DNA of 64,000 nt, from positions 3,580,501-3,644,500 of the forward strand of contig NC_023065.1 of NCBI RefSeq assembly GCF_000513295.1. The letters run 5' to 3'. The stretch comes from Magnetospirillum gryphiswaldense MSR-1 v2. GTDB taxonomy: Bacteria; Pseudomonadota; Alphaproteobacteria; Rhodospirillales; Magnetospirillaceae. The notes beneath the pieces are model-generated. The model ran no database searches. It saw only the letters and a program-made list of their open reading frames with translations, and was not told where the DNA came from. Positions 22,754 through 37,934 of this stretch are shown here, piece by piece. The number at the start of each line of letters is the position of its first letter. Positions within the stretch are counted from its first letter, which is position 1. The translations under genes and the position numbers were made by a program.

Positions 22754-23803
22754 TTAGACCACGGGCGCCAGCCGGTCGGCGGGCGGCTGCTCCGGTTTGT
22801 GTTGGTGGAAATAGCCCTCGGAATGAATCTGATCGGCCTTGGCCCCCAGGGCCTTCACCGCCGTCACGCAGGCCTCGACGAAATCGGGGCTGCCGGCGAT
22901 GAAGATGGAATGGTTGGACAGATCCTGGAACAGGCCGGGCAGCACGGCGGGAATGCGCCCCATCAGCCCGTCATGCTTTTCCTGGGTCAGGGTGGGGACG
23001 AAGCGGAAGCGGCGGTTGCGCGCCTGCCACAGCGCCATGCTGCCCTGGCAATAGATGTCTTCCTTGGTCTTGCCGGAAAACACCAGGGTGACCGGCTGGT
23101 TGTAGCCGCGCCTAAGGGCGGCGTCGGCCAAGCTCATGATTGGGGCCAGACCGGAGCCGGCGGCCAGGCACAGCACCGGGGTATCCACCGACGGATCACC
23201 GATGAAGGTGCCATAGGCGCCCGACACCTTGATGAAATCGCCCACTTTCACGCTGTCGTGCAGCCAGCGGCTGGTGGCGCCGTCATCGACGCGGGTGATG
23301 TGCAGGTTGATCTCGCCGTCGGGCTTGGGGGCGTTGGCGATGGAATAGCACCGGGGCGGCACGCCCCGGCTTTCATCACCCAGCACCAGATACTGGCCGG
23401 GCCAGAAGCGCATGGGCTTGCCCACCGGCTTCAAGACGAATTCGGTGATGCGCGGGGTGCGCGGGAACTTGTCGACGACCACGAACAGCATGTTCTCGCG
23501 CGGGGGGAACAGCTTGGGCTTGGCGTCGTCGGTGCCCCACTCGATTTCCAGCAATTCCGACAACGGCTTGGCCATGCACATCAGGCCGAAGCCATCCTTG
23601 CGTTCGGCCTGGGACAGGGCCATGTCCAGCACCATGCCCTGGTCGAACTGACCCGAGGTCACCTTGACCTTGCATTCGCCGCAGGCGCCGGCGCGGCAAT
23701 TGTTGGGCAGCGCATAGCCGGCCTTTTCCAGCGCCGACAGCACGGTTTCGCCGTCAGGGCATTCGACCTCGCGCCCCGAGGGCAGCAGACGGATACGACT
23801 CAT
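22754..23803 (-). CDS. Ferredoxin/FAD/NAD(P)H reductase of a diiron oxygenase
   Basis: A 349-residue electron-transfer protein. Residues 1-95 are a plant-type [2Fe-2S] ferredoxin with CX4CX2C in 'NNCRAGACGECKVKV' and the fourth Cys in 'GLMCMAKPL'. Residues about 105-205 are a flavin domain with the FAD motif 'RCYSIANAP'. The rest is a nucleotide-binding domain with 'GSGLAPIMSLADAA' and 'FIAGSPDFVEACV'. This order is that of reductases feeding bacterial diiron or Rieske oxygenases (phenol hydroxylase P5, MmoC, BenC). It lies 93 bases after the diiron gene. The ATG at 23803 follows GAGGTGGGGAA. Confidence 0.9.
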   Translation of the reverse strand: MSRIRLLPSGREVECPDGETVLSALEKAGYALPNNCRAGACGECKVKVTSGQFDQGMVLDMALSQAERKDGFGLMCMAKPLSELLEIEWGTDDAKPKLFPPRENMLFVVVDKFPRTPRITEFVLKPVGKPMRFWPGQYLVLGDESRGVPPRCYSIANAPKPDGEINLHITRVDDGATSRWLHDSVKVGDFIKVSGAYGTFIGDPSVDTPVLCLAAGSGLAPIMSLADAALRRGYNQPVTLVFSGKTKEDIYCQGSMALWQARNRRFRFVPTLTQEKHDGLMGRIPAVLPGLFQDLSNHSIFIAGSPDFVEACVTAVKALGAKADQIHSEGYFHQHKPEQPPADRLAPVV

Positions 23804-23839
23804 TTCCCCACCTCGACGTCTTGTTTTTTTGGACAAAGG

Positions 23840-23865
23840 GCCGGTGAGGGTTTTCCCCCACCGGC
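23840..23865 (-). other. Intercistronic hairpin between diiron gene and reductase
   Basis: Inverted repeat GCCGGTG / CACCGGC around a G/C-rich inner part (GGG TTTT CCC). It lacks a T-run on the minus strand, so it is more likely an RNA stability or processing element than a terminator. Confidence 0.5.
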
Positions 23866-23896
23866 TCTGGTCATATTTTGGTACTGAAGGGCCGGC

Positions 23897-24925
23897 TTAG
23901 AAGACCGGGATGATGTCCTTCATCTCGATATCGGTGACTTCCTGGCCGGAAATGCCCACTTCCGGGATGGCCGGGAAGGGGATGCCGTAGCGGTCGAGCA
24001 CGCCCTTGAGGTTGAGCATGGCGTTCTTCCAGTTTTCCAGCTTGGCGTCGTAAGCCGGGATGTGGAAGCCGGCGCCGCGGGCGATTTCTTCGCCCTTGCG
24101 CTGGTTGGCGATGAAGTCTTCCGGCAAGTCCCAGAAATCGGCCGGCGGCTCGAACAGGACGGCGGACAGGAACAGATAGCCGGCGCGCACCTGCTTGGTG
24201 ATGGTGGCGGCGTCTTCCTTGGGCAGGTTGGGGTAATCGCGTTCCATCAGCGCCATGCAGATGGCCATGTGGCGGCCTTCGTCACGACCGATGTTGCGGA
24301 AGCCTTCCTTGAACACCGGCTCGGTGCAGCCGGCGGCCATCTGGTGGAAGATGGTGGCGGCGGCGATTTCGCCCATCAGGAAGGACGAGAACAGCACGGC
24401 CAGCGAGTACTTGGGCACCGCCTGCTTGTAGCCCGACCAGTAACGGCCACCGTTGTAATACAGCCACTTGGCGTTCTTTTGCAGGGCCTTGCCGATCTCG
24501 GTCTTGGGCTGATAGGTGATCGGATCGGGATGTTCCAACAGCTTGGTGATGGCCAGGCCGCACATCTGCTCGTGGTTCTGCTCGTCGCGGGTGACCGAGA
24601 AGAAGCAGCGGCGCACCGGGTCTTCTTCATGCATTTCATAGGTCTTGATGAAGGCCGAGGCGAAGACCGGCGGGGCCGACGCGTCGAACACCGACAGCAG
24701 CGTCCACCAATAGGCGATAGCTTCGCGTTCTTCCCAGGTATAGGTGGAAACGTCGAAGGTGTCCCACGGCAGCTTGGACGGATCCCAGGCTTCGCGCAGC
24801 GAGGCGGCCCACACTTCTTCCATCTTCTTGCTCTGGGCGTGCCAGGACAACGGATAGACGTTGGGCTGTTCCGTTTCCGGCGGGAATTCCATGGTGAGAG
24901 CAAGCTTCTCGTTCGAGGCGCTCAT
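23897..24925 (-). CDS. R2-like diiron protein, probable oxygenase component
   Basis: A 342-residue ferritin-like protein. Two ExxH motifs are visible: E115-Q-N-H118 ('TRDEQNHEQM') and E216-G-R-H219 ('GRDEGRHMA'). E186 ('LMGEIAA') and probably D81 (or E97) would complete a diiron site, a spacing like that of ribonucleotide reductase R2. The position four residues after H118 is Cys (C122), where R2 has its radical Tyr, so an oxygenase role is more likely than radical storage. A dedicated reductase follows in the same unit. It has its own promoter and GGAGCG ribosome binding site, and a terminator separates it from livF. I do not recognise a named family; the substrate is unknown. Confidence 0.75.
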   Translation of the reverse strand: MSASNEKLALTMEFPPETEQPNVYPLSWHAQSKKMEEVWAASLREAWDPSKLPWDTFDVSTYTWEEREAIAYWWTLLSVFDASAPPVFASAFIKTYEMHEEDPVRRCFFSVTRDEQNHEQMCGLAITKLLEHPDPITYQPKTEIGKALQKNAKWLYYNGGRYWSGYKQAVPKYSLAVLFSSFLMGEIAAATIFHQMAAGCTEPVFKEGFRNIGRDEGRHMAICMALMERDYPNLPKEDAATITKQVRAGYLFLSAVLFEPPADFWDLPEDFIANQRKGEEIARGAGFHIPAYDAKLENWKNAMLNLKGVLDRYGIPFPAIPEVGISGQEVTDIEMKDIIPVF

Positions 24926-25009
24926 CTGACGCTCCTAAAGTGGTCCGGCAAGATTGGCCGGGGGTTGCCTCCGATGGCCGGTGGTTGTTCCACCGCCTTT
25001 GTGAGGATT

Positions 25010-25038
25010 AATATGATACATCATTTGTCATTAGTCAA
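25010..25038 (-). promoter_or_regulatory. Promoter and operator of the diiron-reductase unit
   Basis: On the minus strand, TTGACT (25038-25033), a 17-base spacer and CATATT (25015-25010) form a sigma-70 promoter about 85 bases before the diiron ATG. The palindrome ATGAT-AC-ATCAT (25013-25024) covers the spacer and part of the -10, a good place for a repressor. PaaX, encoded 5 kb away, is the candidate. Confidence 0.6.
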
Positions 25039-25104
25039 AGAAAAATGTGTCGCTTTGTGAATTGGAAAATAACGGCGGAAATCCTTATGTTTTAGGCATT
25101 AAAA

Positions 25105-25142
25105 AAGCGCCTTGTCGCATGTTGTGATGCGGCAAGGCGCTT
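25105..25142 (-). terminator. Strong intrinsic terminator after livF
   Basis: A 16-bp stem AAGCGCCTTGYCGCAT with a six-base loop; on the minus strand it is followed by TTTTTTAA. It lies 22 bases after the livF stop and separates the importer transcript from the diiron unit. Confidence 0.93.
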
Positions 25143-25164
25143 ATAATTACAAAAAATGTGGGAT

Positions 25165-25869
25165 TTATAGCCCCAGATAGGCCGCCTTGACCCGCTCGTC
25201 GCCCAGCAACACCTGGGCGTCGTCGGCCATGGTGATGTCGCCGGTTTCCATGACATAGCCGCGATCGGCGATGCCCAGGGCCTGAAAGGCGTTTTGTTCC
25301 ACCAGCAAGATGGTCATGCCTTGGGCCTTCAGCCGCTCGACGGCGTTGAAGATTTCGCCCACCAGCAGCGGCGCCAGCCCCATGCTGGGCTCGTCCAGCA
25401 GCAGCAGGCGCGGGTTGCTCATCAGGGCGCGGGCCATGGCCAGCATCTGCTGCTGACCGCCCGACAGCAGGCCGGCGGCCTGTTTGCGCTTGGTCTTCAG
25501 GATGGGGAAGGTGTCGTACATGCGCTCCATGTCGTCCGCCGGCTTGGCGCCGCGACGGCGATAGGTGCCCATCAGCAGATTGTCCTCGACGCTCATGGGG
25601 CCGAACACCTGACGGCCTTCCGGCACCTGGGCGATGCCCAATTGCACCCGCTTGTGGGCGGGCAGGCGGGTGATGTCGTGGCCGTCGAAACGGATGCTGC
25701 CGGCGCTGATCGATTGCACCCCCGACAAGGCCCGCAGCAAGGTGGTCTTGCCGGCACCGTTGGCGCCGACCAGGGCGACCAGTTCGCCCGGCTTGACGGC
25801 GACGTCCACGCCCTTCAGCGCCTTGACCCGCCCGTAATGGCTTTCCAGCCCTTGGATTTCTAACAGCAT
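25165..25869 (-). CDS. livF: Branched-chain/aromatic-type ABC importer ATPase LivF
   Basis: A 234-residue ABC ATPase, the second of the pair in HAAT-type importers. Walker A 'GANGAGKTTLLRAL', signature 'LSGGQQQMLAMARAL', Walker B 'LLLLDEPSMGLAP' and the H-loop region replaced by 'ILLVEQNAFQAL', as usual in LivF. Last gene of livKHMGF, ten bases after livG. The transported compound cannot be told from the ATPase; context (PaaX, oxygenase) suggests an aromatic or related acid rather than an amino acid. Confidence 0.92.
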   Translation of the reverse strand: MLLEIQGLESHYGRVKALKGVDVAVKPGELVALVGANGAGKTTLLRALSGVQSISAGSIRFDGHDITRLPAHKRVQLGIAQVPEGRQVFGPMSVEDNLLMGTYRRRGAKPADDMERMYDTFPILKTKRKQAAGLLSGGQQQMLAMARALMSNPRLLLLDEPSMGLAPLLVGEIFNAVERLKAQGMTILLVEQNAFQALGIADRGYVMETGDITMADDAQVLLGDERVKAAYLGL

Positions 25870-25879
25870 CGGGGCCTCC

Positions 25880-26637
<758 letters not shown>

Positions 26638-26641
<4 letters not shown>

Positions 26642-27594
26642 GGGGCCTCCTTGCGGCGCAACAGCTTGGCGATGGTGGGAACCAGGCCCTTGGGCATGAA
26701 GATCATGGTGCCCATCATGATACCGCCCAGGATGATCGGCTCGAAATCCTCGAAGGCGGCCAGCGCATTGGGCAGCAGCGTCATGATGACGGCGCCGACC
26801 ACCGAGCCCATGACCGAGGCCATGCCGCCGAACACCGCCATCACCACGAATTCCACCGATTTGATGAAGCCCAGGATCGACGGCGTCACCGTCGGCGTGT
26901 GGTGGGCGAACAGCGATCCGGCGAAGCTGGCGAACATGGCCGAGATGACGAAGATCAGCACCTTGTAGCGGGTGGTGTCGATGCCGACGACGCGGGCGCC
27001 GATCTCGGCCCCGTGCAAGGCGCGCAAAGCCCGGCCAATGGGCGAATCGATCAGGTTGGTGGACAGCCACACGGTCAGCAGCAAGGCGCCGCCGACCAGC
27101 CAGTACCAGGATTGCTCGGTGGCGAAGGTGTAGCCCAGCACGGTGAAGGGGGCCGCCGACATGCCGTCGGGGCCGCCGGTCACCTGCGCCTCGGTGTTGA
27201 GGACGATGGAGATGATGACACCGATACCCAAGGTGGCCATGGCCAGATAATGGCCCTTGAGGCGCAGGATGGGCCGGGCGATGACATAGGCCAGGATGCC
27301 GACGACGGCGATGCCGGCGGCCATGGCCCCCAGCGCCGGCCAGCCATAGGTGGTGGTCAGGATGGCCGAGGCATAGGCGCCCAGGCCGAAGAAGGCGGCA
27401 TGGCCCAGGCTGATTTGGCCGGCATAGCCGATCAGCAGGTTGAGGCCGACGACGACGATGGCGTTGAGCCCGGCATTGATGACCACGTCATAGTGATAGT
27501 CATTGCGCAGCGCCAAGGGCAGCACGGCGATGACCGCCGCCAGCACGATCAGGCCGCGATGTCGTTGCAAAGCGGGGGGGAGCATGGAGGTCAT
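26638..27594 (-). CDS. livM: Branched-chain/aromatic-type ABC importer permease LivM
   Basis: A 318-residue inner-membrane permease with eight to ten helices. The 'LNLLIGYAGQISLGHAAFFG' signature near residue 52 is characteristic of LivM, and the cytoplasmic loop 'DSPIGRALRALHGAEIGARV' is the EAA-like ATPase contact. Start and stop both overlap neighbours by four bases (ATGA), so livH, livM and livG are tightly coupled. Confidence 0.93.
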
Positions 27595-28466
27595 ACCCGG
27601 TCGATCCCTTTCTTGCCGAACAGGCCGTTGGGACGGAACACCAGCACCACCAGGATGATGATGAAGGCGATGGCATCCTTGTAGGCAGAGGACAGATAGC
27701 CGGCGCTGAGCGCCTCGACGATACCCAGGATCAGGCCGCCGGCGACGGCGCCGACGCCGTTGCCAAGGCCGCCCAGGACCGCCGCCGAAAAGCCCTTGAG
27801 CCCCAGCATGATGCCCGATTCATAGGAGACGAAGGTGATCGGGGTCACCACGATGCCGCCCACCGCGCCCAACAGCGCCGACAGGGCGAAGGCCGACAGC
27901 AGCACCCATTTGGTGTCCACCCCCATCAGCCGCGCGGCCAGCGCGTTATAGGCGGTGGCCAGCATGGCCTTGCCGGCCAAGGTGGCGTTGAAGAACCACG
28001 CGATCACCACGATCAGGGCCGAGCTGATGCCCATCACCCACAGGCTTTGCGGCATCAAGGTGGCACCCATCAGATTGAGCGGCGTTTCACCGGAAAAGGC
28101 CGGCAGCGAGTGGATGTCCTTGCCGAACACCAGTTGCACCACGCCGCGTAGGAAGATCGAGGCGCCGATGGTGATGATGATCAGGGCGACCACGTCGGCA
28201 TCCTTGGCCGGCTGGATGGCGAATTTGGCCAAGGCCATGCCCACCAGCATGGTTACCAGGGTCGCCAGCACGATGGCCAAAGGCAGCGGCACGCCCGCCG
28301 CCAACAGCGCCACCGTGCTCATGCCGCCGATGACGATGAACTCGCCCTGGGCGAAATTGATGACGTGGCTGGCATTGTAGATGATGGAAAAGCCCAGGCC
28401 GACCAGCGCATAGATGGCGCCGCTGGTCAATCCGGCCAGGATGAACTGGATCATCGACTCGATCAT
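27591..28466 (-). CDS. livH: Branched-chain/aromatic-type ABC importer permease LivH
   Basis: A 291-residue inner-membrane permease. 'LTSGAIYALVGLGFSIIYNA' and 'VINFAQGEFIVIGG' are the LivH N-terminal signature; 'YNALAARLMGVDTKWVLL' is the ATPase-contact loop. A GGGGGC ribosome binding site precedes the ATG. It pairs with LivM to form the channel. Confidence 0.93.
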   Translation of the reverse strand: MIESMIQFILAGLTSGAIYALVGLGFSIIYNASHVINFAQGEFIVIGGMSTVALLAAGVPLPLAIVLATLVTMLVGMALAKFAIQPAKDADVVALIIITIGASIFLRGVVQLVFGKDIHSLPAFSGETPLNLMGATLMPQSLWVMGISSALIVVIAWFFNATLAGKAMLATAYNALAARLMGVDTKWVLLSAFALSALLGAVGGIVVTPITFVSYESGIMLGLKGFSAAVLGGLGNGVGAVAGGLILGIVEALSAGYLSSAYKDAIAFIIILVVLVFRPNGLFGKKGIDRV

Positions 28467-28554
28467 GGGAAAGCCCCCGTTGCGGCCCGTCTTGCCGCCC
28501 TTAAGGCGGCGGCAAGACGGAGTCCCGGACGGTTAAAGTTCGCAACGCTTCAGG

Positions 28555-29706
28555 TCAGTCGACCATCTTCCAGTCGCCCTTGCTGATTTCCACCATGTGG
28601 AAGGCCGACAGGTTCAGACCCATGTGGTCGGTGGCCGACATGGAAACGATGCCGCCGGTACCCACATAGCCCGAAGTCTTCTCGATCTCGTCGCGGACCT
28701 TGGCCTTGTCGCTGGAGCCGGCGCGCAAGATCGCCGCCAGGGCGATCTGCAAACCGTCATAGGCATGACCGGCGAAGGTCGAGACCTCGGTCTTGAAGGC
28801 GGCTTCGTATTCGCTCTTGAAGGCGGTGACCACCGGCTTTTGCGGATCGGTGGCGGCCAGCTGGCTGGCGATGACCAGACCGGCGGCAGGCAGACGCACG
28901 CCTTCCGAGGCATCGCCGGCCAGACGGATGAAGTCCTTGGAGGCGACACCATGGGACTGGTACAGCGGCTGGGTGATGCCCAATTGCTTGTAGTTCTTGG
29001 TGACGATGGCCGGGCCCTGGCCGAAGCCGAAATTGAAGATGGCCTGCACGCCAGCGGTGTTCTTGATCTTGGTCAGCTGGGCGGTGACGTCGGGGTCTTT
29101 GGGCGAATAGACCTCGTCGGCGACGATCTCGATGCCGTATTGGGGCGCGACCAGCAGCGACTGGTCATGGCCCGACTTGCCGAAGCCGGCATTTTCCGAA
29201 ATCAGCGCCACCTTGGTCAGGCCGCGCTTCTTCATGTCCGAGAACACCTTCTCAGCCGCCATGCGGTCGGTGTGCGGGGTCTTGAACACCCATTTCTTCA
29301 CCGGGTCGACGATGTCGATGCCGCCGGCCAGGGAAATGAACGGAACCCCGGCCGGGTCGGCGATCTTGATCGCCGCCATGGAGGTACCGGTGGTGGTGCC
29401 GCCGATCAGGATGTCGACGTTGTCGCTTTGGATCAGGCGCTTGGCGAAGGTCGCCGCCTTGTCCGGGGCGCCGCCGTCGTCATAGACGGTCAGTTCGATC
29501 TTGCGACCCTGGACGCCGCCTTGCTTGTTCAGCCGGTCCACATACATTTCCAAGGTCTTCTTTTCCGGCTCGCCCAGAAACGACGCAGGGCCGGTCACCG
29601 ACAGGAACGCACCGATCTTCACCGGATCGGCGGCCTGGGCGGTCCAGGATACGGCCAAGGCGCAGCCGGCAACAGCCAGACTCGCCAGAGTCTTCAATCC
29701 ACGCAT
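28555..29706 (-). CDS. livK: Periplasmic solute-binding protein of the Liv-type importer
   Basis: A 383-residue type-I periplasmic binding protein (Peripla_BP_6 type) with a signal peptide MRGLKTLASLAVAGCALAVS ending in AQAA. 'PVKIGAFLSVTGPASFLGEP' begins the mature part, and 'LIGGTTTGTSMAAI' and 'ISLAGGIDIVDPVKKWVFKT' form part of the ligand site. The ligand motifs differ from the Leu/Ile/Val binder as I remember it. First gene of the importer operon; ATG at 29706 follows AGGGAGGAAAAAAG. The gene symbol describes the position in the transporter, not the ligand. Confidence 0.9.
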   Translation of the reverse strand: MRGLKTLASLAVAGCALAVSWTAQAADPVKIGAFLSVTGPASFLGEPEKKTLEMYVDRLNKQGGVQGRKIELTVYDDGGAPDKAATFAKRLIQSDNVDILIGGTTTGTSMAAIKIADPAGVPFISLAGGIDIVDPVKKWVFKTPHTDRMAAEKVFSDMKKRGLTKVALISENAGFGKSGHDQSLLVAPQYGIEIVADEVYSPKDPDVTAQLTKIKNTAGVQAIFNFGFGQGPAIVTKNYKQLGITQPLYQSHGVASKDFIRLAGDASEGVRLPAAGLVIASQLAATDPQKPVVTAFKSEYEAAFKTEVSTFAGHAYDGLQIALAAILRAGSSDKAKVRDEIEKTSGYVGTGGIVSMSATDHMGLNLSAFHMVEISKGDWKMVD

Positions 29707-30074
29707 CTTTTTTCCTCCCTGTGGTCGATTATGACCATCATGTTTCCACTTTATCCGGCGACATTGGAAAATTTCGTAACGCAAGTGCGAAAGGAAAAAT
29801 CCTGGCAATCAGCGGAGTAACGGACATCTTTGATTTTTATCGCATCTGATATGATGCTTTTTTAGAATATTTCCGAAGCATATTGTATCGGTTCCAGCCT
29901 GTCAACGGCACTGCGCCGACCGTGGTTATGAATAAAGAAACTTGTTACATGATGCAGAATATTGAATCGACTCTAATTTTGCAATGCTGCGGACCCGCGT
30001 GAAAAACTTCGGTTGCGCCGCCAAGCCGCTTGGCTAGGATGGGCGCACGCAGCCACACCGGTGACACTCAAGGC
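29707..30074. promoter_or_regulatory. livK-paaX divergent control region
   Basis: A 368-base AT-rich gap without a gene. Minus-strand promoter for livK: TTGACA (29905-29900), 17-base spacer, TATGCT (29882-29877). The perfect inverted repeat GCATC-TGATAT-GATGC at 29842-29857 lies about 15-30 bases downstream of the predicted start. A further ATGATGC occurs at 29949-29955 on the paaX side. I find no clear promoter for paaX itself. Confidence 0.55.
29842..29857. promoter_or_regulatory. Palindromic operator candidate before livK
   Basis: Five-base arms GCATC/GATGC around TGATAT. It contains TATGATGC, close to the TATGATAC inside the palindrome at the diiron promoter. Position downstream of the livK promoter fits repression. 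PaaX as the ligand-responsive repressor is an inference from neighbourhood. Confidence 0.45.
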
Positions 30075-31022
30075 ATGAGCGCCAAATCCCGCCTGGATGA
30101 CATGGTCCAAGCCACCCTGGAACAGCTTCGCCCCAAGGCGAAATCGCTGATCGTCACCGTTTACGGCGATGCCATCCTGCCCCATGGCGGTTCCGCCTGG
30201 CTGGGCAGCCTGATCCGGCTGGTCGAACCCTTCGGCCTTAACGAGCGCATTGTCCGCACCTCGGTGTTCCGGCTGTCCAAGGAAGACTGGCTGACCTCGT
30301 CCCATGTGGGGCGGCGCAGTTATTACAGTCTGACCGAGACCGGACGGCGGCGGTTCGAGGCGGCGCATCGGCGCATCTACTCCTATGCGCGGCGGCCTTG
30401 GGACAAGCAATGGACCATGGTCTTCACCAATCTGACCGGCACCGAAGGCGAGCGGCGCGAGGCGCTGCGCCGTGATCTCGGCTGGCTAGGCTTCGGCCAG
30501 TTGTCGCCCGGTGTCATGCTCCATCCCGATCCCGATCAGGCCGCGGTGCGTCAGGCCCTGATCGACGCCGAGGCGGGCGAGCAGGCGGTGGTCATGCGCG
30601 CTTCCGCCGAAAGCTGGGTGGCGCCCGAGGCGCTGCGCGACGTCATCCGCACCTGCTGGGACCAGGACCGGTTGGCCCACGACTATCTGGGTTTCCTCGA
30701 TATCTTCCGGCCCTTGTGGCGGGCGTTGGACGGCTTGAGCGAGCCCGACCCGGAAACCTGTTTCCTGGTGCGATCCTTGCTGATCCACGGCTATCGCCGG
30801 GCGCTGCTGCGCGATCCCATGCTGCCGGACGAATTGCTGGCCCCCGACTGGCCGGGGGCGGCGGCACGGCTGTTGTGCCGCAACCTGTACCGGCTGGTCC
30901 AGGCCCCGGCGGAGCGCCATCTGATGAGCGTGCTGGAAACCGCCGAAGGTCCGCTGCCCGAGGCCAATCCTGCCTTTTTCGCCCGTTTCGGCGGTCTGGC
31001 CTTGCCCGACGCCGCCGCCTGA
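30075..31022 (+). CDS. paaX: PaaX-family transcriptional repressor
   Basis: A 315-residue GntR-like winged-helix regulator of the PaaX family. 'SLIVTVYGDAILPHGGSAWL', 'RIVRTSVFRLSKEDWLTSS' and 'GRRSYYSLTETGRRRFEAAH' match the E. coli PaaX N-terminus closely, and the C-terminal 'LLIHGYRRALLRDPMLPDEL' is the PaaX_C signature. In E. coli PaaX represses phenylacetate degradation and is released by phenylacetyl-CoA. No paaABCDE, paaK or paaG genes are in this window, so the regulated genes may be the neighbouring importer and diiron oxygenase. The start was set by alignment to PaaX; its ribosome binding site is weak. Confidence 0.9.
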   Translation: MSAKSRLDDMVQATLEQLRPKAKSLIVTVYGDAILPHGGSAWLGSLIRLVEPFGLNERIVRTSVFRLSKEDWLTSSHVGRRSYYSLTETGRRRFEAAHRRIYSYARRPWDKQWTMVFTNLTGTEGERREALRRDLGWLGFGQLSPGVMLHPDPDQAAVRQALIDAEAGEQAVVMRASAESWVAPEALRDVIRTCWDQDRLAHDYLGFLDIFRPLWRALDGLSEPDPETCFLVRSLLIHGYRRALLRDPMLPDELLAPDWPGAAARLLCRNLYRLVQAPAERHLMSVLETAEGPLPEANPAFFARFGGLALPDAAA

Positions 31023-31062
31023 TCGATAGTTTCCCGGCCAGTTGTGGGCCAGGGGAACCATC

Positions 31063-34000
31063 ATGCAGCGCGGACTTGCCTTCATCGCCGTTTCCATCGT
31101 GGCCGGGGCGGCTGCCCTGGGGGCCTGGGGCACCCATGATCTGCGTCCGGCGGTGCAGCCCGTCGTCGCCGCCATCGAGGCGCCGCCGCCGCGATCCGGT
31201 GACGTGGCGCCGCTGGCCTCGGTCAATCCCGGGCTCGATCAGGTCAAGCCCAGCCCTGGCGTGCTGACCTATCAACGCCTGATCACCAATGCCGAGAGCG
31301 ACACGCCGGAAGCCTGTCTGGTGTTTTCCGCCCCGCTGGACCCAGGAATCGCCTATCAGGATTATCTGACCATCCCGACCCAGCCGCGCCCCGGCCTGCG
31401 GGTGGATCAGGCGCGGCTGTGCGTGAGCGGTCTTGCCTTTGGCCGCGAACACGCCGTCACCATGAAGGCCGGGCTGCCGGCTGCCGACGGCAGCAAGCTG
31501 GCCGCCGATACCAAGCTGTCGGTGAGTTTCGGCGACCGCCCGCCGCAGGTGGCTTTCGGCCCCGGCTTCATCCTGCCGCGCCACAGCGGCGACGGCCTGC
31601 CGGTGACCACCGTCAACGCGCCGCGGCTGGAGATGAAGCTGTACCGGGTGGGCGACCGCCTGCTCGCCCGCATGCGCCAGGATCTGGTGGACGAAAAAAC
31701 CGTCTATCCCTATCAGGCCGGCGAGTACGCCGATGACGAAGGCCGGCTGGTGTGGTCGGGCGGCATGGACATCAAGGGCGAACGCAACGAAAGCACCATC
31801 AGCCTGTTCCCCCTGGCCCAGGCCATGGGCAAGCCCGAGCCGGGCGCCTATCTGCTGGTCGCCGCCTTGCCCAAGGTCGGCAAGGAAGACGTCAGTGACG
31901 AATATGATTACCGCCCCATCGCCGGCCAATGGGTGGTGCATTCCGATCTCGGCCTGACCTCGTTTCGCGGTGATGACGGCCTGACCGTGTCGGTGCGCTC
32001 CCTGGGCAGCGCCAAGGCCAAGCCGGGGGTGCGCCTGACCCTGATCGCCCGCAACAACGACGAGTTGGCCCAGGCGGTGACCGATGCCGAGGGCCGCGTC
32101 CATTTCGCCCCCGGCCTGCTGCGCGGCCAGGGCGGCATGGCCCCAGTGATGGTCATGGCCTATGACGGCGACGACTTCAATTTCCTCGATTTGCGCCGCC
32201 CCGATTTCGACCTGTCCGACCGTGGCGACCAGGGCCGCGACCCCGCCGGGCCGGTGGATGCCTTCCTCTATACCGAACGCGGTATCTATCGCCCCGGTGA
32301 AAGCATCGAGTTGGTGACCTTGCTGCGCGATCCCGATGTGCGCGCCATCGCCAATGCCACCCCCATCCTGTCGGTGCTGCGTCCCGACGGGCGCGAATAT
32401 CGCCGTTTCACCGCCGCCGATCGCGGTGCCGGCTCGTATCACCTCACCATTCCCTTGCCGAAAAGCGCCAATCGCGGCCTGTGGCGCATCAATGCCCTGA
32501 TGGACCCCAAGGGCGAGCCGGTGGGCACGGTGCAGATCGACGTGCAGGATTTCGTCCCCCAGCGTCTGGCGCTCGACATCGCCGCGCCGCCCGCGCTTTT
32601 GCGCCCCGGCCAGGACATCGCCTTGGATGTGGCCGGGCGCTTCCTCTATGGCGCCCCTGCCGCCCATCTGGGCGGCGAGGCCGAGCTGACGCTGGAAGCC
32701 GATCCCAATCCGTTCCCCCAACACAAGGGCTTCGTTTGGGGGGTGGATGGCGGCAAATATGCCGGCGAGCGGGTGACCCTGAAGCTGGCCGACACCGATG
32801 AAGCCGGCAAGACCCGGGTGACCGGGGCGTTGCCTGCGCGCATGGACAGCCCGGTGCCGGTGCGGGCGGTGCTGAACGTGGCCCTGCGCGAGCCGGGCGG
32901 GCGCACCACCTCGGATCAGGTGATGGCGCCGGTGGCGCTGGGGCCGCTGGCCCTGGGCCTGCGCCCGCATTTCGACGGTGTGGCGCCGCAAAATCAGGAC
33001 AGTGTGTTCGATGTGCTGGCGGTGGACGAAACCGGCAAGCCAGTGGCCACCGATCAGGTCGAGTACCGCCTGTTCCGCGATGTCTCCACCTGGCAATGGT
33101 ATCGCGCCAATGGTGAATGGCGCTATCAGCGCGTCGCCAAGGAAAGCCAGATCGCCGGCGGCACCCTGACGGTGGGTGCCGACAAGCCGGCACAGGTGCG
33201 GCAGACTCTGAGCTGGGGCAGCTATCGCCTCGAGATGCGCAAACAAGGCGTGCTCACCAGCAAGGCTTTTTATGTGGGCTGGTACGGCCAGGCCAGCGCC
33301 GACCGTCCCGACCGCCTGAAGGTGGGCGCCGACCGTCCCGGTTATGCGCCGGGCGACAAGGCGCGTGTGCGGGTGGAAACCGATCAGGGCGGCGAGGCCC
33401 TGCTGGTCATCGCTAATGAACGGGTCCAGCACGTGCAAAGCGTCACCCTGGCCCCTGGTGGTGGCGAGATCGCGGTGGAGATGAAGCCGGAATGGGGACC
33501 GGGCGCCTATGCCCTGGTCACCTTGTACCGCCCGTTGACCGACAAGGTCAGTCACGCGCCGGTGCGCGCCGTCGGCACCGTCTGGCTGGGGCTCGACCCG
33601 GCGCGGCGAACCTTGGCGGTGACGCTGGAGGCCCCCGACAAGATCATTCCGCGTCAGCGTCTGACCGTGCCGGTCAAGGTCTCGGGCGGCGACCAGGCGT
33701 TCGTCACCCTGGCGGCGGTGGATCAGGGCATCTTGCAACTGACCCGCTTCAAGACGCCGTCGCCCACCGGCCATTATCTGGTCCAGCGCCGTCTGGGCGT
33801 GGGCATGCGCGACGATTACGGTCGTCTGATCCGTGGCCTGCCCGGCCAGGGCGACGACCAGGGCGGCGATGCCATGGGCCGTGGCCTCGACGTGGTGCCG
33901 ACGCGCACGGTGGCGCTGTTCTCCGGCGTGGTGCCGGTTAAGGACGGTATCGCCAGCATCGAGCTGGACATCCCCGATTTCCAGGGTGAATTGCGCCTGA

Positions 34001-35901
34001 TGGCGGTGGCCTTCGACGGCACCAAGCTGGGCTCGACCGAGCGCCGGCTGACCGTGCGCGATCCGGTGGTGGCGGAAATGATCCTGCCGCGCTTCCTCGC
34101 CCCCGGCGACCGGGCCGCCGCCACCGTGCTGTTGCACAATCTGTCCGGGGCGGCGGGGGATTTCCGCCTGGATTTGACCAGCGACGGGCCGGTGCATCTG
34201 GCCGAACAGCGCACGGAAACGCTGGCGGCGGGGGAACGGCGCATTCTGTCTCTGCCCATCCGGGCGGATCAGCCGGGCATCGCCAATCTGGGCCTGATCG
34301 TCTCGGGCCCCGACAATTTCGCCGTCAGCCGCACCTGGCCCATCCAGGTGCGCCCGGCCCAGGCGCCGGTCAGCGTGCAGAACACCGTCTCGCTGGCCGC
34401 CGGAGCCCAGGAAAAGCTGGATGGGCAAATCCTCGACGCCTATCTGCCGGGCAGCGCCCAGGTGTCGCTCAGCCTGTCGCGCTGGCAGGGGCTGGATGTA
34501 CCCGGCATGTTGCGCTGGCTCGACCGCTATCCCTATGGCTGCCTGGAACAGACCACCAGCCGCGCCTTACCGCTGCTTTATTTCAACGATCTGGCCGCCA
34601 TGGCCGGCACGGCCCAGGATGCCAACGCCGATGCCCGCATCCAGCAGGCGGTGGACCGGGTGCTGACCATGCAGGGGGTGGATGGTTCCTTCCGCATGTG
34701 GGGGCCGTGGGGCGACGATGCCAATGCGTGGCTGTCGGCTTTCGCCCTCGACTTCCTCGACCGCGCCGCCGCCAAGGGCTTCGACGTCCCCGAGGCGCCG
34801 CGCGCCCTGGGCCGGCGCTGGCTGGCGGCGGACGCCTTCACCGATTCACGCCCCGAGGTCAAGGCCTATGCCGCCTTCCTGCTGGCCCGCGCCGGCAAGG
34901 CCAATGCCAGTGATCTGCGTTATTTCTTCGACAGTGCTCCACCCAAGGGGGCCATGGCCTGGGCCCATCTGGGCGCGGCTTTGGACAGTGTGGGTGAACG
35001 CGCCCGCGCGGCCCTGGCCTTCGACCGGGCCCGCCAAGCCCTGAACAGCAATCCCAGCGGCTATAAACCACTGCCCTATGGCAGCTATGTCCGCGACGTC
35101 TTCGCCGTCGCCGCTATCATGGCCGAGGCCGGACGATCGGCACAAATCCCCGATCTGCTGGCCATGGGCTTTCAGCAGAACGTTCAGGCCGAGCAGACCA
35201 CCACTCAGGACAAGGCGTGGATTCTGATGGCTGCCGCCGCGCTCGGCAAGAATGCCGGCCAAGTGGCGGTGCAGGTGGACGGCAAGGCCGTGGGCAAGGG
35301 CGATCCGGTGGCCATGGCCCTGGATGTGGCCGCCCTGACCCGTGGGGTGAGCATCGACAATACCGGCAGCGGCGCCATCTTCCGCACCCTGTCGGTGGAC
35401 GGCATCCCGGCGCAGGAAGTACCGGCCCAGGAAAACGGTGTCGGCTTGTCCAAGCAGGTGTTCAGCCTGGACGGTCAGCCCGTGGATCTGGCCCAGGTCA
35501 AGCGCAACGACCGGCTGGTGGTGGTGCTGGAAATGAACGCCCACGGCAAGCGGGCCGGCGATTATGCCCTGCTCGACCTGTTGCCGGCGGGGCTGGAGGC
35601 GGAAGGGGTGATCAAGGCGGATCAGCCCGGCTATCCCTGGCTGAGCGGCATCACCGACCCCAGCATGCGCGAACTGGGCGACGACCGTTTCATCGCCGTG
35701 CAAACCCTGCCGCGTTATGTCCGTGGCCCCGATCAGCCGGAATGGGAACAGGGTAATCCGGTCCATACGGTCAAGCTGGCCTATGTGGTGCGTGCGGTGG
35801 GCTTGGGTGAATTCGCCATGCCGGCGGCACTGGCCGAGCACATGTACGCGCCGGGCATCACCGCCCGCACCGCCATGGGCCGGCTCGGCATCGTGGAATG
35901 A
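31063..35901 (+). CDS. Bacterial alpha-2-macroglobulin
   Basis: A 1612-residue protein of the YfhM/ECAM type, acting in the periplasm as a protease trap. An N-terminal signal or anchor segment (MQRGLAFIAVSIVAGAAALG) is followed by many MG beta-sandwich domains. The thioester motif CLEQ is intact at about residue 1160 in 'YGCLEQTTSR'. Unlike E. coli YfhM there is no lipobox Cys, so it may be anchored by the uncleaved N-terminal helix. The last four bases overlap pbpC, the classical partner that repairs peptidoglycan. AGGGGAA precedes the ATG. Confidence 0.95.
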   Translation: MQRGLAFIAVSIVAGAAALGAWGTHDLRPAVQPVVAAIEAPPPRSGDVAPLASVNPGLDQVKPSPGVLTYQRLITNAESDTPEACLVFSAPLDPGIAYQDYLTIPTQPRPGLRVDQARLCVSGLAFGREHAVTMKAGLPAADGSKLAADTKLSVSFGDRPPQVAFGPGFILPRHSGDGLPVTTVNAPRLEMKLYRVGDRLLARMRQDLVDEKTVYPYQAGEYADDEGRLVWSGGMDIKGERNESTISLFPLAQAMGKPEPGAYLLVAALPKVGKEDVSDEYDYRPIAGQWVVHSDLGLTSFRGDDGLTVSVRSLGSAKAKPGVRLTLIARNNDELAQAVTDAEGRVHFAPGLLRGQGGMAPVMVMAYDGDDFNFLDLRRPDFDLSDRGDQGRDPAGPVDAFLYTERGIYRPGESIELVTLLRDPDVRAIANATPILSVLRPDGREYRRFTAADRGAGSYHLTIPLPKSANRGLWRINALMDPKGEPVGTVQIDVQDFVPQRLALDIAAPPALLRPGQDIALDVAGRFLYGAPAAHLGGEAELTLEADPNPFPQHKGFVWGVDGGKYAGERVTLKLADTDEAGKTRVTGALPARMDSPVPVRAVLNVALREPGGRTTSDQVMAPVALGPLALGLRPHFDGVAPQNQDSVFDVLAVDETGKPVATDQVEYRLFRDVSTWQWYRANGEWRYQRVAKESQIAGGTLTVGADKPAQVRQTLSWGSYRLEMRKQGVLTSKAFYVGWYGQASADRPDRLKVGADRPGYAPGDKARVRVETDQGGEALLVIANERVQHVQSVTLAPGGGEIAVEMKPEWGPGAYALVTLYRPLTDKVSHAPVRAVGTVWLGLDPARRTLAVTLEAPDKIIPRQRLTVPVKVSGGDQAFVTLAAVDQGILQLTRFKTPSPTGHYLVQRRLGVGMRDDYGRLIRGLPGQGDDQGGDAMGRGLDVVPTRTVALFSGVVPVKDGIASIELDIPDFQGELRLMAVAFDGTKLGSTERRLTVRDPVVAEMILPRFLAPGDRAAATVLLHNLSGAAGDFRLDLTSDGPVHLAEQRTETLAAGERRILSLPIRADQPGIANLGLIVSGPDNFAVSRTWPIQVRPAQAPVSVQNTVSLAAGAQEKLDGQILDAYLPGSAQVSLSLSRWQGLDVPGMLRWLDRYPYGCLEQTTSRALPLLYFNDLAAMAGTAQDANADARIQQAVDRVLTMQGVDGSFRMWGPWGDDANAWLSAFALDFLDRAAAKGFDVPEAPRALGRRWLAADAFTDSRPEVKAYAAFLLARAGKANASDLRYFFDSAPPKGAMAWAHLGAALDSVGERARAALAFDRARQALNSNPSGYKPLPYGSYVRDVFAVAAIMAEAGRSAQIPDLLAMGFQQNVQAEQTTTQDKAWILMAAAALGKNAGQVAVQVDGKAVGKGDPVAMALDVAALTRGVSIDNTGSGAIFRTLSVDGIPAQEVPAQENGVGLSKQVFSLDGQPVDLAQVKRNDRLVVVLEMNAHGKRAGDYALLDLLPAGLEAEGVIKADQPGYPWLSGITDPSMRELGDDRFIAVQTLPRYVRGPDQPEWEQGNPVHTVKLAYVVRAVGLGEFAMPAALAEHMYAPGITARTAMGRLGIVE

Positions 35902-37934
35902 CCCGCCGCCGCCTGCTGGCGGTGGGTGGGGTGCTGCTGGCCCTGGTCTTGGGGCTGGGATTGGCCGATCTGCTGTTGCCGCCGGATTTGACCCGGCTGC
36001 ACCGGCAATCGGCGGTGGTCGAGGACAGCAGCGGCACTTTGCTGCGCCCCTTCGCCCTGGCCGACGGCACCTGGCGGCTGGACAGCGACCCGGCACGGAT
36101 CGCACCGCTTTATCTGGCCATGCTGCGCGAGATGGAGGATGGCCGTTTCGGCTGGCATCCCGGCATCGACCCGCTGGCCCTGACCCGTGCCGCCTTCCAG
36201 GCGGTGAGCCAAGGCCGGGTGGTGTCGGGCGGCTCGACCTTAAGCATGCAATTGGCCCGACTGCTTGACCCCAAGCCGCGCACTATGGCGGCCAAGCTGA
36301 CCGAGATGGCCCGCGCCGTGCAATTGCAGATGCGCCTGGGGACAGCCGGGGTGCTGCGCGCCTATGTCACCTTGGCCCCGTTCGGTGGGCGGGTGGAAGG
36401 GGTCAGGGCCGCGTCGCTGGCCTGGTTCGGGATCGAGCCGGCCCATCTCGGCCCGGCCCAGGCGGCGTTGTTGGCGGCCTTGCCGCAATCGCCGGAACGC
36501 CTGCGCCCCGACCGTCATCCGCAGGCGGCGAAAGCGGCGCGCGACCGCGTGCTGGATCGCGCGGTGGGGGCCGGCTTGCTGTCCGCCGACGTGGCCCAGG
36601 CGGCCAAGGCCGAGGCCTTGCCCACCTTCCAGCGCGACCTGCCGATGTTGGCGCCGCATCTGGCCGAACGTCTGAGCGCCGAGGGTGACAAGCGGATCAG
36701 GACCACGATCGACGGCAATTTGCAGCGGGTGGTCGAGGGACTGGCCCGTGCCCTGTCCGCTGGCTGGGATGACGGGGCCGAACTGGCCTTGCTGGTGGTG
36801 GCCAATGACGGGCGGCGGGTGCTGGCCCATGTGGGCAGCGGCGATTGGCGGCGCTGTCAGGTCGATCTGACGCGGGCGTCACGCTCGCCCGGATCGACGC
36901 TCAAGCCGTTCATCTATGCCCTGGCCTTCGATGATCTGTCATTGCATCCCGGCACCTTGATCGAGGATGCGCCGCAACGCTTCGGCCTGTGGCTGCCACG
37001 CAATTTCGACCAGGACAGCCACGGGGTGATGACCGCGCGCGAGGCGTTGCAGCGGTCCTTGAACATCCCCGCCGTGCTGGTGCTGGATCAGGTGGGGCCG
37101 GTGCGGCTGGCGTCGCTGCTGCGGCAAGTGGGGGCGGAACTGGCCTTCCCCGCCTTGGCCGAGCCCAGCCTGCCCTTGGCCTTGGGCGGTGTCGGCATGC
37201 GACTGGTCGATCTGGTCATGCTTTATGCCGGTCTGGCCGAGGATGGTCTGGTGCGCCCGCTCGCCTTCGTCCACGGAGCGGAAACGCCCACCGGGCGGGC
37301 CTTGGTCGGCCAGCCGGCGGCCCGCGCCGTGGTGCAGGCCTTGGAAGGATCGCCGCCGCCACCGGGGGTGGCCTCGGCCCGGCTGACCCAGCGCGGTCGG
37401 GCCATCGCCTTCAAGACCGGCACCTCATACGGCTTCCGCGATGCCTGGAGCATCGGCGTGTCGCGCGACTACACCATCGGTGTCTGGGTCGGGCGCCCCG
37501 ACGGCGCCCCGCGTCCGGGCCAATACGGATTGGCGGCGGCAGCGCCGATCCTGTTCCAGCTGTTCGACCTGTTGCCGCCCGACCAGGGCCGTCGCTCGCC
37601 GCCGGCCCAGCCCGACCATGCGCTGTATCACGCTCAGCCGCCCGCCGCCCTGGCCCGGCTGAGTGGGCGCGGTGAGGATACGGTGCTGTCCGGTCCGGGC
37701 CGTCCACGCATCCTGTTCCCCCCCGACGGCACCACCGTCGAAGCGCTGGCCGACGGCATCGCCTTGGCCGCCCAAGGCGGGGTGGCGCCGCTCAAATGGA
37801 TCGTCGATGGCGTGCCGCTGGCTGACGACGTCCGCTTCTGGCGGCCCGAGGGCGACGGTTTTTCCCGGTTGGTGGTGGTGGACGGCAACGGCCAGCGGGC
37901 GGTCTCGACCATTCGGGTGGTGACGGGGCAATAG
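35898..37934 (+). CDS. pbpC: Penicillin-binding protein 1C
   Basis: A bifunctional peptidoglycan synthase, 678 residues, anchored by an N-terminal helix (about 5-25). The glycosyltransferase domain has 'EDGRFGWHPGID' and 'GGSTLSMQLARLL'. The transpeptidase domain has the SxxK motif in 'SPGSTLKPFIYA', 'QRSLNIPAVLV' and KTGTS. A C-terminal PbpC-type beta domain follows (about 590-678). It is slightly shorter than the E. coli protein as I recall it. ATGA overlap with the macroglobulin gene indicates coupling. Confidence 0.95.
   Translation: MTRRRLLAVGGVLLALVLGLGLADLLLPPDLTRLHRQSAVVEDSSGTLLRPFALADGTWRLDSDPARIAPLYLAMLREMEDGRFGWHPGIDPLALTRAAFQAVSQGRVVSGGSTLSMQLARLLDPKPRTMAAKLTEMARAVQLQMRLGTAGVLRAYVTLAPFGGRVEGVRAASLAWFGIEPAHLGPAQAALLAALPQSPERLRPDRHPQAAKAARDRVLDRAVGAGLLSADVAQAAKAEALPTFQRDLPMLAPHLAERLSAEGDKRIRTTIDGNLQRVVEGLARALSAGWDDGAELALLVVANDGRRVLAHVGSGDWRRCQVDLTRASRSPGSTLKPFIYALAFDDLSLHPGTLIEDAPQRFGLWLPRNFDQDSHGVMTAREALQRSLNIPAVLVLDQVGPVRLASLLRQVGAELAFPALAEPSLPLALGGVGMRLVDLVMLYAGLAEDGLVRPLAFVHGAETPTGRALVGQPAARAVVQALEGSPPPPGVASARLTQRGRAIAFKTGTSYGFRDAWSIGVSRDYTIGVWVGRPDGAPRPGQYGLAAAAPILFQLFDLLPPDQGRRSPPAQPDHALYHAQPPAALARLSGRGEDTVLSGPGRPRILFPPDGTTVEALADGIALAAQGGVAPLKWIVDGVPLADDVRFWRPEGDGFSRLVVVDGNGQRAVSTIRVVTGQ

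Follow-up and report, generated by a model that had tools for sequence, protein, structure and literature searches.

Introduction

In the described phenylacetate (paa) pathway, the ring of phenylacetyl-coenzyme A (CoA) is oxygenated by the PaaABCE epoxidase, in which PaaA, PaaB and PaaC are served by the reductase PaaE. The ferredoxin domain of PaaE is C-terminal. PMC9493321 places its FAD domain at the N-terminus and gives the E. coli PaaX box as TGATTC(N27)GAATCA. PMC13186573 puts forward PaaA and PaaC as robust markers for recognising the pathway in genomes and mentions "other configurations" lacking the epoxidase. Here we describe a locus of Magnetospirillum gryphiswaldense MSR-1 within a 64,000-nucleotide stretch of NC_023065.1 (G000:C1:3580501-3644500; hereafter the window), part of a 4.37-Mb, single-contig genome (G000). 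The locus encodes PaaX, a Liv-type importer, a 342-residue diiron protein (DIIRON) and a reductase, the last two being referred to as the pair. The pair very probably belongs to the phenylacetate pathway, and DIIRON is likely to act as its ring oxygenase, with phenylacetyl-CoA as presumed substrate and an epoxide as presumed product. This reading is based on gene content, linkage, co-occurrence, the lack of a PaaA-family match, and operator-like repeats. In our best reading, the pair is a non-homologous replacement of PaaABCE in this organism and a supplement to it in genomes that hold both.

Searches of the open-licence PubMed Central literature, a scope outside which most subscription papers lie, showed no description of a phenylacetyl-CoA oxygenase unrelated to PaaA, and the available parts of PMC9416434, PMC9493321, PMC9765128, PMC2653477 and PMC6515984 do not mention the pair. 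As to growth, two Azospirillum strains are reported to use phenylacetic acid and to have split paa genes, with paaX chromosomal and paaABCDE on a replicon (PMC3899980), and Magnetospirillum sp. 15-1 is reported not to grow on phenylacetate with or without oxygen (PMC5378359).

A paa Cluster Without PaaABCDE

About 350 kb from the window, at about 3247.7-3256.4 kb of the same contig (L102), the genome carries a paa cluster in the order PaaY-like, PaaN, PaaF-like, PaaG, PaaH, PaaI, PaaJ, PaaK; its hexapeptide-type gene is the one that we take to be PaaY-like. NCBIfam cut-offs, given in brackets, are exceeded by PaaN at 898.8 bits (578.75), PaaG at 433.5 (345.15), PaaH at 673.7 (669.4), PaaI at 144.5 (118.9) and PaaK at 728.8 (646.3), the PaaF-like protein falls under its cut-off (343.4 vs 371), and PaaJ is a thiolase assigned by BLAST alone, from its 75% identity with the PaaJ cluster. 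This cluster is without PaaABCDE, and PF05138, the family of PaaA and PaaC, has no match in the whole genome. We read the window locus and the distant cluster as halves of one pathway, with DIIRON and its reductase in the vacant place. The other two PaaK-like loci of the genome (L103, L104) led nowhere; L103 contains transhydrogenase genes and no paa cluster.

The features of the locus, in window coordinates and with the basis of each assignment, are as follows.

22754..23836, minus strand, probable start 23803: NAD(P)H reductase with Fer2-FAD-NAD domain order (Pfam; downstream of DIIRON in related loci)
23897..24925, minus strand: DIIRON, R2-like, candidate phenylacetyl-CoA ring oxygenase (invariant pattern of putative ligands, ColabFold, Foldseek, genomic context)
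25014..25052, minus strand: putative PaaX box at the diiron promoter, CGACAC-N27-GTATCA, which departs from TGATWC/GWATCA at 2 of 12 positions and is conserved in the window and five aligned relatives
25101..25142, minus strand: intrinsic terminator 3' of livF (RNA folding)
25165..25869, minus strand: livF, ATP-binding cassette (ABC) ATPase (Pfam, NCBIfam)
25880..26665, minus strand: livG, ABC ATPase (Pfam, NCBIfam)
26638..27594, minus strand: livM, permease (Pfam, NCBIfam)
27591..28466, minus strand: livH, permease (Pfam, NCBIfam)
28555..29808, minus strand: livK, periplasmic binding protein (Pfam; solved-structure relatives)
29852..29890, strand unassigned: candidate PaaX box between livK and paaX, TGATGC-N27-GTATCG (repeat search)
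30030..31022, plus strand: paaX repressor (Pfam, NCBIfam; sole PF07848 match of the genome)

An earlier note on this DNA, made from the sequence alone, is partly supported as an interpretation of the whole locus. It correctly described paaX (30030-31022, plus) as diverging from livKHMGF (29808-25165, minus), and its second same-strand unit, a diiron protein with a ferredoxin/FAD/NAD reductase, is borne out by the open reading frames (ORFs), the reductase having its domains by Pfam. The terminator that it placed between the two units is real (window 25095-25150, minus strand, -24.1 kcal/mol; z -5.38, with 0 of 200 shuffles equally stable), but its hairpin, followed by a U run, has 15 pairs and one mismatch instead of the 16-bp stem claimed. 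The absence of the usual paa genes and of a CoA ligase holds for the window, where tblastn with three references for each of nine paa proteins detected neither a CoA ligase nor another paa enzyme, but not for the genome, given the distant cluster with PaaK. The tblastn matches in the window were PaaE-like ones onto the reductase and a 47-residue one within livK, which is discounted because its reference ORF (PaaG/F cluster) is evidently mislabelled.

The Diiron Protein and Its Reductase

DIIRON exceeds no Pfam or NCBIfam cut-off, and its single match among sequences of solved structures has an E value of 0.88. D81, E115xxH118, E186 and E216xxH219 do not vary across the alignment (89 of 89 sequences), which includes the homologues of 49% identity from Variovorax and Nonomuraea, and D81, E115, H118, E186, E216 and H219 are presumably the metal ligands expected of an R2-type protein. 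This pattern suggests an R2-like, carboxylate-bridged diiron site. The ColabFold model (45 sequences) is nearly all-helical, with a mean predicted local distance difference test score of 82.5 and a predicted TM-score of 0.82, and the top Foldseek matches are ribonucleotide reductase R2 and R2-like ligand-binding oxidase. With these proteins DIIRON shares the D-ExxH-E-ExxH sequence pattern and the all-helical model; it differs from them in its identity of about 14%, its PF00268 score of 19.9 bits, under the 33.6 cut-off, and its genomic context. As a presumed non-haem diiron oxygenase, DIIRON also resembles AurF-type N-oxygenases and the benzoyl-CoA epoxidase BoxB. Weak matches to the AurF model were obtained with 45 of 45 family members (best E 4.3e-6), window DIIRON scoring 17.6 bits, under the 29.6 cut-off. 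There is no match to PF05138 in DIIRON, nor any Pfam match to the alpha or beta subunits of soluble multicomponent monooxygenases, and the DIIRON unit holds no further gene. A remote PaaA was considered and rejected, as there is no profile similarity and the hhalign probability is 0.9%, a value that is itself weak evidence because the profiles are shallow (effective number of sequences about 1.5).

The reductase has the domain order Fer2 (residues 17-91), FAD_binding_6, NAD_binding_1 by Pfam. As its likely start, a two-sequence alignment favours the ATG at 23803 over the TTG at 23836. It passes no NCBIfam equivalog cut-off and reaches 127.9 bits against the 420.8 of the PaaE model TIGR02160. 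Overall, the pair and the PaaABCE epoxidase have in common their genomic place, presumed PaaX control, the logic of a diiron protein fed by an NAD(P)H-FAD-2Fe-2S reductase, and the downstream enzymes PaaG, PaaN, PaaF, PaaH and PaaJ. They differ in that the pair is without PF05138, has one diiron protein in place of PaaA, PaaB and PaaC, has no PaaD in its unit, and carries the ferredoxin at the N-terminus of the reductase. Because the defining domains were looked for and are absent, the pair is not classed as a PaaABCE enzyme, although it is proposed to work like one.

Recurrence of the Pair

In the collection of named genomes, 486 stretches matched a pattern, of which 307 encode a DIIRON relative; the best 80 of these 307, at 77-99% identity, were analysed. 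By record title they come from Azoarcus/Pseudothauera, Dechloromonas, Azospirillum, Marinospirillum, Paraburkholderia, Comamonas, Castellaniella, Bacteriovoracaceae and others, and the nearest named relatives of G000, judged by this protein, include metagenome-assembled genomes (MAGs) labelled Magnetospirillum sp. and Rhodospirillaceae. In 73 of the 80 loci, DIIRON is followed within 250 nt by a reductase ORF on the same strand; in four, the ORF caller detected no reductase ORF in the locus.

Neighbours were clustered from the ORFs of the 80 loci, seven further loci and the window, many loci being cut by contig ends. Clusters are single-linkage BLAST groups, each named by NCBIfam from one representative, so single members may be mislabelled, as one PaaG/F member is; the representatives of PaaN, PaaK, the PaaJ-type thiolase, PaaH, PaaI, PaaG, PaaA, PaaC, PaaD and PaaE exceed their cut-offs. 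Among the 80 loci, the neighbours are livK in 39, PaaJ in 33, PaaN in 30, PaaK in 29, PaaX in 28, PaaH in 27, PaaI in 25, PaaG/F in 23 and PaaA in 17, and at least four of six paa enzymes occur together in 29. The conserved linkage of the diiron protein to paaX and liv genes that the earlier note proposed to look for is thus present in relatives. On plasmid pVF1 of Vitreoscilla filiformis, a DIIRON homologue of 81.5% identity and a reductase lie near paaABCDE, paaZ and a binding-protein gene.

More distant homologues have other surroundings. Plasmid 2 of Variovorax sp. RA8 (L105:9989-12041) encodes a 49% identical DIIRON with a reductase, beside genes for an AMP-binding protein, a thiolase, MaoC, enoyl-CoA hydratase and TetR, and liv genes; this DIIRON probably represents a sister oxygenase that acts on a different CoA thioester. 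The Nonomuraea neighbourhood has no paa theme (ABC transporter, adenosine deaminase, UbiA, aminotransferase).

Co-occurrence with the Pathway

The same 199 genomes of the order were scanned for DIIRON, PaaG and PaaN. DIIRON matches occur in eight, seven of them at 76-100% identity (G000 included); the eighth, G026, at 25%, is not counted as a carrier. In a phylum sample of 398 genomes there are three matches, namely G000, one at 76% and a partial one at 25%. PaaN exceeds its cut-off in 17 of the 199, and DIIRON is present in seven of these 17 (G000, G083, G164, G176, G107, G137 and G161) and, with G026 left out, in none of the other 182 (Fisher 8.8e-9, uncorrected for kinship). Of the six genomes of genus g1, four have DIIRON, PaaG and PaaN, two have none of the three, and none of the six has PF05138.

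Canonical PaaA (TIGR02156 over cut-off, run on 16 of the 17, with PF05138 used for G090 instead) occurs in four of the PaaN-positive genomes, G091, G115, G161 and G167. A divergent PF05138 gene adjoins paaN in ten: G016, G037, G054, G067, G079, G090, G091, G115, G143 and G167. Every one of the 17 genomes therefore has at least one of canonical PaaA, the divergent PaaA-like gene and the DIIRON pair. Among them, DIIRON and canonical PaaA are found together in G161 only, and DIIRON and the divergent gene in none; outside these 17, Azospirillum isscasi and A. soli have both DIIRON and the divergent gene.

The divergent PaaA-like gene (for example L125:11409-12389, L122:7517 and L127:8434) lies between paaN and paaF/paaG and scores 57-70 bits against TIGR02156 (cut-off 280), and seven of its ten carriers are without canonical PaaA. 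A second such gene, at 80-86 bits, is found in nine of the ten, those tested with TIGR02156. The divergent gene is a possible third type of ring oxygenase.

Importer and Regulation

The five-gene set LivKHMGF is complete by Pfam, with NCBIfam scores under the cut-offs of the E. coli equivalogs. The nearest solved relatives of LivK are 3sg0 (E 1.2e-43) and 4dqd (1.8e-42), followed by 7ylt, 3ukj, 3uk0, 3tx6 and 4jb0 at about 1e-34, and some PDB entries named "putative leu/ile/val-binding" are intermediate at about 1e-26. We take the first group, headed by 3sg0 and 4dqd, to be Rhodopseudomonas binding proteins for aromatic acids of the benzoylformate, phenylpyruvate and coumarate types. Import of branched-chain amino acids was rejected as the theme of the locus, since the E. 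coli Leu/Ile/Val binders match LivK at only 4e-9 and weaker, vs 1.2e-43 for 3sg0.

The window PaaX reaches 302.4 bits against TIGR02277 (cut-off 264.55) and matches Pfam PaaX, PaaX_M and PaaX_C; the genome has no second PaaX. Footprints of conservation are seen upstream of DIIRON, in the window and five aligned relatives; upstream of paaX-livK, in the window and L020; and upstream of paaN-paaF, in four genomes of g1. Each of these three promoters in G000 has an inverted repeat whose half-sites are 27 nt apart (CGACAC/GTATCA, TGATGC/GTATCG and TGATAC/GTATCT). The E. coli paa regulon likewise has a PaaX repressor and an N27 inverted repeat; G000 differs from it in having two distant loci, in including the Liv importer and the diiron pair, and in a right half-site GTATC, not GAATC.

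The 250 nt 5' of DIIRON were searched in 79 loci and in the window, 80 sequences in all, for TGATWC/GWATCA with no more than one mismatch in the 12 positions; the repeat has spacer 27 in 12 sequences, spacer 28 in 18, and each other spacer from 15 to 39 in zero to three. The half-site consensus was chosen with the three G000 sites and the E. coli box in view, so that only this spacer comparison is independent. Across the pooled loci (2.24 Mb), the repeat also peaks at spacer 23 (122 hits, vs 112 for 27 and 108 for 28), and the spacer-23 form is absent upstream of DIIRON. The repeat flanks a TTGAC hexamer in several of the upstream regions. Judged from such sequence patterns, these repeats are putative sites at which PaaX may bind. 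As a side observation, the PaaX-like repeat upstream of DIIRON comes in two spacers, 28 and 27.

Directly 3' of paaX (window 31042-37934, plus strand) stand a large alpha-2-macroglobulin-like ORF and a PbpC-like ORF, which we take to be an ordinary pair.

Alternative Readings

Several points weigh against DIIRON as the ring oxygenase of the pathway. Canonical PaaA is encoded in 36 of 50 plus 16 of 30, that is, 52 of the 80 carrier genomes, which means that many carriers do not depend on the pair as sole epoxidase, and DIIRON may often be redundant or doing something else, such as another oxygenation step. Many of the PaaA-less carriers described below are MAGs and may be incomplete. PaaG exceeds the TIGR02280 cut-off in 39 of the 199 order genomes, among them ten of genus g4 that lack DIIRON, PaaA and PaaN, and partial PaaG-positive clusters without PaaN or any of the three oxygenases exist in G039, G009, G051, G064, G065, G088 and others. 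Furthermore, the left half-site at the window's own diiron promoter is weak, the 80 upstream regions are mutually related, many being from Azospirillum, and the structural model resembles known folds weakly (best Foldseek E 8.5e-4, with one of 585 at E <= 0.001).

The g4 PaaG (L111-L120) stands alone in the stretches examined, a contig end cutting one flank in L113 and L114. TIGR02280 may be too permissive, or this paralogue may have another role; PaaG alone was accordingly rejected as a pathway marker, and PaaN was used instead. Among the loci of the partial clusters (L129, L132, L133 and L135, of G009, G039, G051 and G064), there is a hemerythrin-domain gene near L133 and a bacterial-globin gene near L129.

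The PaaA-bearing carriers and the partial clusters without a recognised oxygenase both speak for a different role, in which the pair would sit in the paa regulon and perform another oxygenation, either upstream, in the supply of phenylacetate or phenylacetyl-CoA, or in detoxification, and the ring oxygenase of the PaaA-less genomes would be another, unseen gene. We consider this unlikely in view of certain PaaA-less carriers. Of the 28 carriers without canonical PaaA over the cut-off, four have sub-cut-off TIGR02156 matches (G648, G655, G658 and G662), and the other 24, retested with PF05138, gave the divergent gene in two (A. isscasi and A. soli) and no match in 22, of which G628 and G640 seem identical to G083 and G176 (coinciding contigs). 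In four isolates, Dechloromonas hortensis, D. denitrificans, Castellaniella sp. S9 and Brachymonas denitrificans, DIIRON is accompanied in its locus by five or more of the six paa enzymes, and the genome has no PaaA-family match. In G107 and G137 the pair lies inside the paa cluster, and PF05138 is matched in neither genome. That each PaaN-positive genome of the order has one of the three oxygenases argues in the same direction.

Diiron hydroxylases of free aromatics are common, as is generally known, and the pair could in principle oxygenate free phenylacetate or another free aromatic acid in place of a CoA thioester. This is very improbable, since all 12 PaaA-less carriers tested for PaaG have this enzyme, whose substrate is the epoxy-CoA ester, PaaK occurs in 29 of the 80 loci, and the 49% identical Variovorax branch neighbours genes for an AMP-binding protein, a thiolase and enoyl-CoA hydratase. 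A chance gathering of a standard branched-chain amino acid importer, a stray PaaX and a diiron protein unrelated to them is hardly credible even though Liv genes are generally known to be common in many contexts, given the linkage across genera, the confinement of DIIRON to PaaN-positive genomes in the order sample, the shared operator-like repeats and the closeness of LivK to 3sg0 and 4dqd.

Proposed Function and Significance

With DIIRON as the ring oxygenase, the pathway would run as follows. The Liv-type importer would take up phenylacetate or a close relative, and PaaK, encoded elsewhere, would convert phenylacetate to phenylacetyl-CoA, which would lift repression by PaaX. The FAD/2Fe-2S reductase would relay electrons from NAD(P)H to the R2-like diiron site, where oxygen would be activated for attack on the ring of phenylacetyl-CoA, forming the 1,2-epoxide; PaaG would then isomerise the epoxide to oxepin-CoA, and PaaN, PaaF, PaaH and PaaJ would complete the pathway. 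The earlier note had proposed aerobic uptake and hydroxylation of an aromatic or related acid. A single uptake and oxygenation module stands, but that proposal was too cautious about the substrate, which can be named and is most likely phenylacetate, oxygenated as phenylacetyl-CoA, and its hydroxylase makes better sense as the ring oxygenase that the paa pathway lacks than as a hydroxylation system apart.

More broadly, and with somewhat less assurance, we favour a new class of aromatic-CoA ring epoxidase, composed of a single R2-like diiron subunit and a reductase, that would have originated independently of PaaA and spread horizontally among aromatic-degrading, often denitrifying bacteria, with a distant Variovorax/Nonomuraea branch acting on other CoA thioesters. 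If this is true, PaaA and PaaC as markers miss genomes that run the phenylacetate pathway with an unrelated oxygenase, oxygen-dependent dearomatisation arose on more than one occasion, and the epoxidation of aromatic CoA esters could be studied in a simpler catalyst of two proteins.

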